Positions 7,033-64,000 of a DNA stretch of 64,000 nt are shown here, piece by piece. Source of the stretch: Bacteroidales bacterium OttesenSCG-928-M11 (GTDB lineage Bacteria; Bacteroidota; Bacteroidia; Bacteroidales; Azobacteroidaceae); the NCBI GenBank assembly GCA_030265685.1, contig JAJDGO010000001.1, positions 18,256 through 82,255 of the forward strand, given 5' to 3'. Both the position numbers and the translations under genes were made by a program. The notes under the pieces are model-generated. The model was not told the origin of the DNA. It saw only the letters and a program-made list of their open reading frames with translations, and made no database searches. Numbering within the stretch: the stretch's first letter is position 1; each line of letters starts with the position of its first letter.

Positions 7033-7193
7033 CTTTTTATACAGAAAAACATAAACTCACTCAAAAAAGCTTCTCAATATCCTCAAAAGAAAAAAAGTCA
7101 GGATTCGAGAAATATCTCAACCTAAAACAATAAATTTAAGACTTAGTGAGAGTTATAATTGATCTTTTGCCAAAAGATTAAATCTTTTTTTAA

Positions 7194-7231
7194 TTTTCTG
7201 TACAGATAATTAAACTTTTCTGTACAGAAAA
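7194..7231. repeat. Family A array, 2 units of TTTTCTGTACAGA... at 22-bp spacing
   Basis: CTGTACAG at 7198 and 7220 (period 22). Confidence 0.85.
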
Positions 7232-7480
7232 TATATCAAGTCTTAGTATCTTTTTAATCAACAGATTCTGATACTCTAAAAAAAACAATAAGTATTTTTT
7301 AGAAAATAATACTCTTTTTTATATTTGACACCTAAAAAAAATAAATTTAGCACATAAAACAGGCGTCATATATATACTTTTGTCTGGTCTTTTCTATGAA
7401 TTAACGATGGATAACTAAAATCTTTAAATGAGCAAAAAACAACCCTTTTCATCAATAAATAGAGAAAGGCTATTAAAGTA

Positions 7481-10654: not shown

Positions 10655-11467
10655 TTAATCATTGCATTGATCAATATCTATTGATTCATGAACAGGCTCT
10701 TCTTCCCGAACACTAAGTATCTGTTCTTCAAAGCCTTTTTCATATTTAATCTTCTTCATCGCAAGTCGGGAAGCATGTTGTTGCGATTCTTTCTTCGAGT
10801 ATCCTATTCCGACTCCGGATATAACTCCATTCAGTAAAACTTGACTTTGAAACACCGTATTGTGATCTTGATCTTGGAAAGAGTCTAATAGTTCATAATC
10901 TAAATTAACTTTGTATTTCTGAGACCATTCCAAAAGCTTCGATTTGAAATTAACTTCCTGCTTAACCAAAGTCTCTATATCAATATGATTTTCTATTATC
11001 TTCTTCTTGATAAATTTATAGGTTTTATCATAACCTTTATCTAAATAAACTGCCCCGATAAATGCTTCGAGTGCATTACCTAGTATATGATTCTTCTGAG
11101 AATGTAAACGAGTAGAAGAAGTTATAAGGTCTTTTAATCCAAGTTCGGTAGCTACTTTGTCAAGAGTTTCACGTTTTACAATTTTAGATCGTGTATTAGT
11201 AAGAAAACCTTCGCTCCTACTGGGATATTTCTTGTATAAAATATCCGCAACAACAGTATCTAATACTGCATCGCCCAAAAATTCCAAGCGTTCATTATTA
11301 GTATATCGTCCATCTGCGTTTTCGCGAGAGGAGGATTTATGAATCAAAGCCTCTTCATAAAGGACAATATTTCCCGGAAAAAAGCCGAGTATATTTTTTA
11401 AAGAAAAACAAAACTCCCTCTTTGAGCCAAGAGAGAGTTTTATTCTATTGCTTATTACACGAATCAC
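10655..11467 (-). CDS. rnc: Ribonuclease III
   Basis: NERLEFLGDAVLD signature; C-terminal dsRBD; next to fabF-acpP. Confidence 0.95.
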   Translation of the reverse strand: MIRVISNRIKLSLGSKREFCFSLKNILGFFPGNIVLYEEALIHKSSSRENADGRYTNNERLEFLGDAVLDTVVADILYKKYPSRSEGFLTNTRSKIVKRETLDKVATELGLKDLITSSTRLHSQKNHILGNALEAFIGAVYLDKGYDKTYKFIKKKIIENHIDIETLVKQEVNFKSKLLEWSQKYKVNLDYELLDSFQDQDHNTVFQSQVLLNGVISGVGIGYSKKESQQHASRLAMKKIKYEKGFEEQILSVREEEPVHESIDIDQCND

Positions 11468-14918: not shown

Positions 14919-14984
14919 AACCCGAACAAGGAACCGGAGCAACAAAATAAATCTTTGTCTCAAAAAGATTTTATAATTTAAATA

Positions 14985-15022
14985 TTTTCTGTACAGAGAA
15001 TAAAAGTTTTCTGTACAGAAAA
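14985..15022. repeat. Family A array, 2 units at 22-bp spacing
   Basis: CTGTACAG at 14989 and 15011; last unit is a full TTTTCTGTACAGAAAA palindrome. Confidence 0.85.
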
Positions 15023-15092
15023 CTTCAAAAAGATAAAATAACTTGCGCCAAGTATTTGTATTAATCGAATAAAGAGATATTATCAATCGGCA

Positions 15093-25428: not shown

Positions 25429-25473
25429 ACGACAACCAGTCAAACACAAATCAATACAACTCACCTAAAAAAA

Positions 25474-25567
25474 TACTATAACTTGTGATAAGTTATTGTA
25501 GAACTTCGATCAAGTTATACTAAAACTTGAAGCAAGTTATACTAAAACTTGGGGAAAGCTATACTAT
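25474..25567. repeat. Family B array, 4 units, 22-bp period
   Basis: ACTT at 25481, 25503, 25525, 25547; pentamers gtgat, cgatc, gaagc, gggga. Confidence 0.9.
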
Positions 25568-25661
25568 CTTGGCGGCAATACAAAAAAATGGCTGATGAAG
25601 TTATCTAATTAACCGGTTGAGTCATTTCCAAAGTTAGATATTTTCTAAAAAATTGGCATAC

Positions 25662-44035: not shown

Positions 44036-44162
44036 CAAATAATTTATTGAATTACCAATAGATACTGTAAAAAACTTCGTAAAAGATCGAATAATAGAGT
44101 TGCTCGGTTTGTGATTTTTTATTTCGTTATAAAATAAATATTTTAGACCATTACAAAAAAGA

Positions 44163-44262
44163 TACTATAACTTGTCCAAAGTTATTAGGAAACTTGCATC
44201 AAGTTATAGTAGAACTTTATACAAGTTATAGTAATACTTTAGTCAAGTTATACGGAAACTTT
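44163..44262. repeat. Family B array, 5 units, 22-bp period
   Basis: ACTT at 44170, 44192, 44214, 44236, 44258; pentamers gtcca, gcatc, tatac, tagtc, ttcac. Confidence 0.9.
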
Positions 44263-58048: not shown

Positions 58049-58082
58049 CAAAGACCAAGAATCAGTATTTTTTAGTCATTAT

Positions 58083-58138
58083 CTGTACAGAGAATAAATG
58101 TTTTCTGTACAGATAATGAAACTTTTCCGTACAGAAAA
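58083..58138. repeat. Family A array, 3 units, 22-bp period
   Basis: CTGTACAG at 58083 and 58105; CCGTACAG at 58127. Confidence 0.88.
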
Positions 58139-58229
58139 TTGTTTTAAGATATAACCAAAATTACAAAAGATAGTCTTTCCGAGCAAAGAAATACTATCGT
58201 TTAATTAAAAACCTTTTATACAAACAGCT

Positions 58230-63101: not shown

Positions 63102-63136
63102 TCAACAATAAAAATCAAACGCCTCGAAAAGAGGTC

Positions 63137-63183
63137 GAAACAGGAGTCAATAGCTTACTTTTTGAGTAGGCTATTGCTGTTTC
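63137..63183. terminator. Long stem-loop between convergent genes (possible bidirectional terminator)
   Basis: GAAACAG-gagt-CAATAGCtTACT...AGTAgGCTATTG-CTGTTTC. Confidence 0.5.
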
Positions 63184-63236
63184 CAGACACTTTATTTCCT
63201 TTATTCTCAAGAACAAACAACAATCGAGAAAAAAGA

Positions 63237-63336
63237 TACTATAACTTCGCCTAAGTTATAGTAGAACTTGATCCAAGTTATAGTAAAACTTGACCCAAGT
63301 TGTTGTAGAACTTCAGCTAAGTTATAGTAAAACTTT
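63237..63336. repeat. Family B array, 5 units, 22-bp period
   Basis: ACTT at 63244, 63266, 63288, 63310, 63332; pentamers cgcct, gatcc, gaccc, cagct, tcgcg. Confidence 0.9.
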
Positions 63337-63353
63337 CGCGATGAACAGATGAT

Positions 63354-64000
63354 TTAGATTCCTAACCAACGTTTAGTTTCTTCTATCGGCGTATTTTTCC
63401 GGGAAGCATAGTTGATTAATTGGTCCTCTCCTACTTTCCCGATGTAGAAATAGACTGATTCCGGATGAGCAAAAAAGAATCCGGCAGTTGAAGAAGTAGG
63501 ATAAATAGCCGCATTTGGAGTCAATTTCATACCAATACGTTTCATTTGAAGAAAATCGTCTATTATAAAATTGAGCGAAATATCCGGCAACATGGGGTAA
63601 CCTGCCGCAGGACGTATCCCTTTTGCGCCCGGCCAATAAGATTGTTTTACTATTAGATGGACATATTCGGTTGCTGCTTCGGCCAAACGATCTCTTACTA
63701 TTTGCGCAAGCATTTCTTGATATGCATCTTCCGGCAAACAACAATCGCAATGTTTCTCAAGAGGATGAACAGCAACAGAAAACATTCCGATATAGTCGCC
63801 TTGCGGATTAACAAAATCGGCAACCGACTTGTATTGATTATCCTCTCGTTTTTCTTGTTGACGAAGCACCGGGATCGCTTTTTCTTGTATAAAAAGAGTT
63901 TGTTTGTTTGCTGTTGCAGGGAAAAAGCCAACGATTGCTTCGATCATTCTATGATTATGTTCGACCCAAATATTGAGAAGTTCCTTAGCTTCGTTGATTA
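63354..64000 (-). CDS. metH: B12-dependent methionine synthase, C-terminal activation domain (5' part outside the window)
   Basis: INEAKELLNIWVEHNHRMIEAIVGFFPATA...SVADFVNPQGDYIGMFSVAV...GIRPAAGYPMLPD; frame stays open to base 64000. Confidence 0.9.
   Translation of the reverse strand, partial: INEAKELLNIWVEHNHRMIEAIVGFFPATANKQTLFIQEKAIPVLRQQEKREDNQYKSVADFVNPQGDYIGMFSVAVHPLEKHCDCCLPEDAYQEMLAQIVRDRLAEAATEYVHLIVKQSYWPGAKGIRPAAGYPMLPDISLNFIIDDFLQMKRIGMKLTPNAAIYPTSSTAGFFFAHPESVYFYIGKVGEDQLINYASRKNTPIEETKRWLGI

Follow-up and report, generated by a model that had tools for sequence, protein, structure and literature searches.

REP and BIME elements of enterobacteria, Pseudomonas, and Stenotrophomonas are dispersed extragenic palindromes that form mosaics of several module types with species-specific sequences, and the roles proposed for them include chromosome organisation and the binding of proteins, gyrase among them (PMC2817692; PMC6379681). 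The elements described here are likewise dispersed, high-copy, extragenic palindromes (84 in 1.17 Mb), and two of their module types, A and B, are mixed in one register as a mosaic. They differ from REP/BIME elements in the exact 22- or 23-bp period of the arrays, in complementarity that is not preserved, in even spacing, and in exclusion between unrelated families. A RAYT/Y1 transposase (PF01797) was not found in the genome under study (52% complete) or in the congener G048 (99% complete). We know of no BIME with even genomic spacing and exclusion between families.

Short chromosome-marking sites, several of them palindromic, are represented by matS/MatP, parS/ParB, and KOPS. These are single sites that are confined to a region or polarised, and matS has a purine-N-pyrimidine dyad. 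The elements described here are instead multi-site arrays, present on nearly all long contigs and showing no polarity with GC skew. Strong gyrase sites are approximately 105-130 bp in length, have helically phased AT and GC content, and include BIME-2 elements (PMC6379681). The present arrays share an 11-bp phasing of AA/TT steps, with peak values of 1.40 for B, 0.94 for A, and 0.29 for other intergenic DNA, which is a resemblance and not a full motif score. Their phased AT/GC layout and intergenic placement at gene ends also recall gyrase sites and BIME-2 elements (PMC6379681). The gyrase motif is degenerate (PMC6379681), whereas the arms of the arrays are invariant.

BrickBuilt, a minisatellite/MITE of Porphyromonas gingivalis, occurs in 19 copies that have terminal inverted repeats, and its 23-nt units follow one another without spacers (PMC4596501). 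Intergenic tandem repeats of similar unit length, conserved and variable sites, special end segments, and occurrence in Bacteroidales are common to BrickBuilt and the present elements (PMC4596501). The latter differ in being built of palindromic modules, in numbering at least 84 within 1.17 Mb, and in showing no target duplication. Terminal inverted repeats as in a MITE are absent, the two ends of B arrays being different, and no target-site duplication was seen. By the tests made the elements are not MITEs. They can be described as BIME-like interspersed palindromic mosaics that lack two of the REP/BIME features tested, RAYT and kept complementarity. In CRISPR arrays, repeats of approximately 23-50 bp alternate with unique spacers of about the same length, whereas the spacers here are 5 nt.

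The window is a stretch of 64,000 nucleotides from Bacteroidales bacterium OttesenSCG-928-M11, whose assembly totals 1.48 Mb in 83 unordered contigs and is 52% complete. Judged by one 705-aa protein, the closest named relatives are Candidatus Azobacteroides and Candidatus Symbiothrix MAGs (54-55% identity), which are termite-gut organisms, and the genome is accordingly treated as that of an Azobacteroides-like bacterium of the termite gut. The array under study lies between a DUF2795 gene (PF11387) and the methionine synthase gene metH (PF02965), which converge on this intergenic region. The ORF of metH, encoded on the minus strand, ends in a stop codon at 63354. The array is therefore 3' of the metH stop, and not upstream of it as the initial annotation had placed it.

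The element is composed of AAAAGATACTATAACTT followed by four copies of AAGTT-N7-AACTT, with an exact 22-bp period and 5-nt linkers (Table 1). Direct reading and a mismatch search bore out the 22-bp register and the sequence as first described. The original count of five units was correct for four full 17-mers (63253, 63275, 63297, and 63319), whereas the unit counted first belongs to a specialised end type. The consensus proposed for the unit holds except in the third 17-mer, AAGTTGTTGTAGAACTT, which is off at two positions, and the tcgcg taken as a fifth pentamer lies outside the array. The inverted repeat with 11-bp arms around cgcct is present as annotated, TACTATAACTT-cgcct-AAGTTATAGTA at 63237-63263, and the half-site centres are 10 bp apart across the linker. 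Read on the minus strand from the metH side, the order is AAGTTTTACTATAACTT agctg AAGTTCTACAACAACTT gggtc AAGTTTTACTATAACTT ggatc AAGTTCTACTATAACTT aggcg AAGTTATAGTATCTTTT TT, with the T-tract end last. A chance origin of the array is excluded, because the 17-mer with up to three mismatches has 17 matches in the window against 1.4 expected and a maximum of 6 in 100 shuffles. A module pair at window position 11119, within a gene, was discarded as a chance match. An ordinary-looking hairpin, CAATAGCTTACT-TTTT-GAGTAGGCTATTG (window 63133-63177), is located between the DUF2795 gene and the array and is a candidate terminator.

Table 1. Positions of array elements and their modules. Positions refer to the window unless a stretch (L number) is given.
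Feature	Position	Strand	Remarks
B element, five modules	63231..63335	minus	Direct reading; module parse 'HBBBB'
End module (H), AAAAGATACTATAACTT (+ strand) = AAGTTATAGTATCTTTT (- strand)	63231..63247	minus	
Linker cgcct	63248..63252		Dyad of 11-5-11 inverted repeat; direct reading
B module AAGTTATAGTAGAACTT	63253..63269		Followed by linker gatcc (63270-63274)
B module AAGTTATAGTAAAACTT	63275..63291		Followed by linker gaccc (63292-63296)
B module AAGTTGTTGTAGAACTT	63297..63313		Followed by linker cagct (63314-63318)
B module AAGTTATAGTAAAACTT, last of array	63319..63335		tcgcg (63336-63340) beyond is flank
Second B element of the window, five modules	44157..44261	minus	Includes end-type module AAGTTTCCGTATAACTT
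Third B element of the window	25468..25572	minus	Outer module degenerate
A element 'XAAh'	7172..7254		Two TTTTCTGTACAGAAAA-type palindromes between end-type modules; contig C1 25426 (0-based)
A element 'HAAH'	14963..15045		
A element with CTGTACAG-type palindromes (three, 22-bp period)	58078..58139		One is CCGTACAG
Third 22-bp family, own genome	L062:7693-7854; L101:3252-3356; L117:6370-6511		
G048, 22-bp family of ACGTAC/AATTTATTTTC type	L273:13066-13168; L276:14118-14247; L279:17663-17867; L285:9201-9375		
G048, phased 23-bp arrays	L248:13624-13785; L250:19687-19855; L251:14667-14853		Approximately 16-17 kb apart

The same layout recurs throughout the genome, of which 1.17 Mb was examined in stretches, with the first 0.98 Mb used for step and array counts. 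The 17-mer pattern has 59 forward and 49 reverse matches in the genome, and a backwards control has none. At least 84 intergenic array elements made from modules A and B were identified within the 1.17 Mb. The first 0.98 Mb holds at least 48 B arrays, far from the three loci that the initial annotation had considered might be the only copies. Module-to-module steps in this portion are exactly 22 bp in 264 of 270 cases. A period scan returned 52 arrays at 22 bp and 0-2 at each of the other periods from 10 to 41; further peaks are found at the multiples 44 and 66, with minor ones at 42 and 63.

B arrays vary little in size, with five modules in 23 and four modules in 14 of the 48 arrays, and modules are almost never missing from their interior (one 44-bp step among the 48). 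The two ends of these arrays can be told apart, one carrying a TCCTAAT-core module and the other a T-tract module. The end module AAAAGATACTATAACTT/AAGTTATAGTATCTTTT is present in 12 arrays without mismatch and in 30 with up to three mismatches.

Palindrome A, TTTTCTGTACAGAAAA, is unrelated to B and has 82 copies with up to two mismatches in the genome. All 24 internal spacings of A clusters are 22 bp, and the end modules known from B arrays border the A modules in the same register. Mixed A/B arrays also occur, for example ...TATCTTTT taaac TTTTCTGTACAGAAAAT acatc AAGTTCTACTATAACTT. A third and rarer family, also with a period of 22, contains GTATCA/TTCTCAT-type palindromes around TTAGA. This family (GTATCA-N5-TGAGAC or TTCTCATTAGATGAGAA, with 5-nt linkers) resembles the GTTTCA-N6-TGAAAC arrays of G048.

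Conservation within the B arrays differs between arms and linkers. The AAGTT/AACTT arms are 99-100% identical over 157 modules, and the 5-nt linkers are hypervariable, with 110 distinct sequences among 178. Arm conservation is partly built in because the search began from the arms, and largely real because missing modules inside arrays are almost absent. The pentamers are not the neutral sequence that the initial annotation had allowed for. Purines occupy position 2 in 155 of 178 linkers and pyrimidines position 4 in 153 of 178, and linker G+C is 58% compared with 36.5% genome-wide. The symmetry of this R2/Y4 bias places the dyad in the linker, giving AACTT-NRNYN-AAGTT.

Base pairing is not maintained in the arrays. 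Positions 6 and 12 within a module seldom pair, and pairing across the linker is 3.68 compared with 4.07 in shuffled pairs, a deficit that is due in part to same-orientation neighbouring cores. Stem complementarity is not kept by compensating changes, as pairing is at or below shuffled values throughout this comparison. Single-strand hairpins are thus not what is conserved, and an RNA or single-strand hairpin substrate was rejected on this basis. The absence of both strand polarity and maintained pairing favours binding of a protein to double-stranded DNA over an RNA or terminator function. Gene conversion would homogenise arms and linkers alike, so selection on the arms is the better explanation, and such selection would act most simply through a protein that binds double-stranded DNA. 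Among the three possibilities raised in the initial annotation, a phased protein-binding array fits best, given near-invariant arms, the symmetric R2/Y4 pattern, and a period of about two helical turns. A structured 3' UTR is not supported, given the T-tract polarity, the sites between divergent genes, and base pairing that is not kept. A recombination or transposition substrate retains some probability, yet neither a target-site duplication nor a REP transposase was found in the sequences searched. The second module family, the even spacing along the genome, and the counterpart in another species go beyond what the initial annotation had noticed.

Genes were called with a codon-usage caller written for the purpose, which is crude and gives approximate boundaries. 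By these calls all 84 scored elements are intergenic. Convergent genes flank 28 of 82 elements, compared with 42 of the 252 intergenic regions that measure 130 bp or more, and divergent genes flank 17 of the 82. The median distance is 70 bp to gene ends and 169 bp to gene starts. The T-tract end is oriented with the adjoining gene in 15 elements and against it in 13. No polarity was seen with GC skew (18 of 30) or with the coding strand (16 of 30).

Elements are evenly spaced along the chromosome. Thirteen whole contigs (635 kb) carry 45 elements, and the 33 gaps between them have a mean of 12.8 kb and a minimum of 5.2 kb. The coefficient of variation (CV) of the gaps is 0.41, compared with 0.81 under random placement in the same intergenic regions, and none of 2000 random placements was as even as the observed one. 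There are no gaps below 5 kb, where approximately 11 are expected, and only one below 7 kb. A and B elements exclude each other and share one spacing rule, with a single A-B pair closer than 7 kb against 7.6 expected. This spacing originally came to light on incomplete stretches of this genome, and the out-of-sample test comes from G048 only. Alternation of A and B along the contigs (C1, C5, C11, C45, and others) was seen in an exploratory count, in which 24 of 33 neighbours differ (p 0.009). The only long contig without any element is C34 (47 kb; stretches L111, L226, and L227). It encodes a relaxase, a YWFCY/TraG-type coupling protein, and RteC, and is a conjugative element.

The comparison covered one genome per species, and congeners are approximately 55-60% identical at the protein level. 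In one of them, G048, the same design is present with different modules. Two families have a 23-bp period, GTTTCA-N6-TGAAAC plus N5 and TCTTAGTAGA plus 13 nt. In 495 kb of this genome, 13 of the 16 gaps in these first two families are 12.8-23.9 kb, and gaps below 8 kb number 0 where 4.5 are expected (p 0.004); taken by itself, the CV test gives a weaker result (p 0.04). Held-out contigs, which include C8 with its first 40 kb read earlier, gave 31 gaps with a median of 17.3 kb. Their CV is 0.54 compared with 0.87, and one gap is below 7 kb compared with 8.7 expected, under a uniform null between the first and last element that uses pattern positions only. A further family (F), of ACGTAC/AATTTATTTTC type with a 22-bp period, breaks the distance rule and can adjoin other arrays. 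Elements do not keep their positions from one species to the other, with 4 in common and 3 expected.

The analysis shows how the arrays are built, that arms and linkers are conserved to different degrees, that elements are evenly spaced with A and B keeping apart from each other, and that a second species repeats the design. The elements are best read as multi-site binding arrays for a predicted protein that would organise chromosome domains. We assign this reading a probability of about 0.48. Each element would be a row of four to six double-stranded binding sites, phased at approximately two helical turns (22 bp here and 22-23 bp in G048), and the occupant would probably be a DNA-binding protein that acts as a dimer. 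Its contacts would be the invariant AAGTT/AACTT half-sites. The 5-bp linker at the dyad would not be read base by base, and a purine-N-pyrimidine shape would be preferred there. At about one element per 10-13 kb, intergenic and preferentially behind genes, the elements would mark the chromosome evenly. Their most likely role would be chromosome organisation, for example as boundaries of topological domains, anchors for nucleoid proteins, or wrapping sites of the gyrase type. Protein binding, any assignment of a partner protein, and the domain function are inferences. Standing against the binding-array reading are the position-specific modules (TCCTAAT-core and T-tract), the different positions in the two species, the lack of comparable arrays in the samples of most congeners, and family F of G048. 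Such position-specific modules point to a single composite as the ancestor of the elements, which means that they did disperse.

Bacterial chromosomes are usually pictured as divided into supercoiled domains of approximately 10 kb, with boundaries mostly described as variable and not sequence-defined. For E. coli, 400-500 supercoiled domains are cited (PMC3820752), a scale with which the element spacing agrees. A genome whose elements are evenly spaced on this scale and defined by sequence, as in these two species with their different sequences, would make domain boundaries directly testable. A wider proposal, held more tentatively, is a chromosome-marking system in which unrelated phased palindrome families with a shared 10-16 kb spacing, together with dedicated DNA-binding proteins, would set domains. 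The sequences would be species-specific, with the design and spacing rule kept. A system of that kind would be previously undescribed, and literature searches returned no description of this one. The even-spacing rule would make the elements categorically new, if a dedicated function were shown.

The strongest rival, which we consider unlikely but worth weighing, is a dispersing MITE- or BIME-like element with target immunity near an existing copy. The even spacing would then be a result of packing, and the arms would be transposase-binding sites. Such an origin would account for position-specific end modules common to the elements and for positions that differ between the two species. Packing with an exclusion zone would be expected to give gaps from a minimum d to approximately 2d, as seen, and for related dispersed mosaics, BIMEs among them, mobilisation by a transposase has been proposed (PMC2817692). 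The flanks, however, show no target-site duplication, with a repeat length of 4.3 compared with 4.2 in mispaired flanks, and the missing Y1 transposase in the two genomes, one half complete and the other 99% complete, also argues against this origin. The arms have stayed intact in copies that have otherwise diverged, with linker variation close to saturation, and a single exclusion zone serves two modules of unrelated sequence. If target immunity does hold, the spacing would instead be a clear trace, left in nature, of how a short non-coding element prevents insertion nearby; this too would be unusual. A reading as arm sites of a site-specific recombinase, resembling the 11-5-11 inverted sites with variable core of tyrosine recombinases, is far less probable. 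The 11-bp arms around a variable 5-bp core are suggestive of it. The sites nevertheless overlap by 5 bp and form fixed arrays of four to six, not exchanging single sites, and no cassette or inversion structure was noticed, without a systematic search.

Enrichment at gene ends and between convergent genes, the T-tract end modules, and the good folding of the array strand as RNA (-38.5 kcal/mol, z -6.5) are what a 3'-UTR structure or bidirectional terminator would predict, with the hairpin TACTATAACTT-N5-AAGTTATAGTA followed by TCTTTTTT ending or protecting transcripts. This reading is improbable. T-tract polarity is independent of gene strand (15 vs 13), 17 of 82 elements lie between divergent genes, cross-linker pairing (3.68) is below the shuffled value (4.07), and A modules have no loop. 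The best Rfam match scores 23.7 bits against a gathering threshold of 80, with none above threshold, and the even spacing is left unexplained. An intrinsic terminator in the strict sense was rejected, as hairpin and T-tract do not follow the direction of the upstream gene. Slightly less probable again is a reading of the elements as operators of ordinary transcription regulators, with A and B as two regulons. The palindromic multi-site layout and the 10-bp distance between half-site centres would suit them, but the greater distance from gene starts than from gene ends and the convergent enrichment show no promoter bias, and neither even spacing nor A-B exclusion is expected of regulons. The least probable reading, and one already disfavoured, is a neutral minisatellite formed by replication slippage. 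A few arrays have identical neighbouring linkers (for example, aggtc aggtc and ggact ggact), and identical linkers make up 3.1% within arrays compared with 0.7% between them. Slippage would not explain why invariant and variable blocks alternate, why the number of modules varies so little (mode 5), why two different modules keep to one register, or why spacing along the genome is even.

The A and B sequences themselves were not found in 40 congeners. A relaxed B pattern gave matches in 0 of the 40 congeners and 0 of 397 other Bacteroidota, the strict B pattern had no match in the database genome_contigs, and the plasmid and phage sequences searched had none. Short samples of nine other congeners contained no comparable set of 22-23-bp arrays. 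Since most congeners lack comparable arrays in these samples, any role of the arrays would not be general in the genus. Two congeners without 22-bp arrays (G001 and G012; stretches L123-L132) contain intergenic heptamer repeats of the ATTCTTA/GTTAATT type, with periods of 7, 14, 21, and 28.
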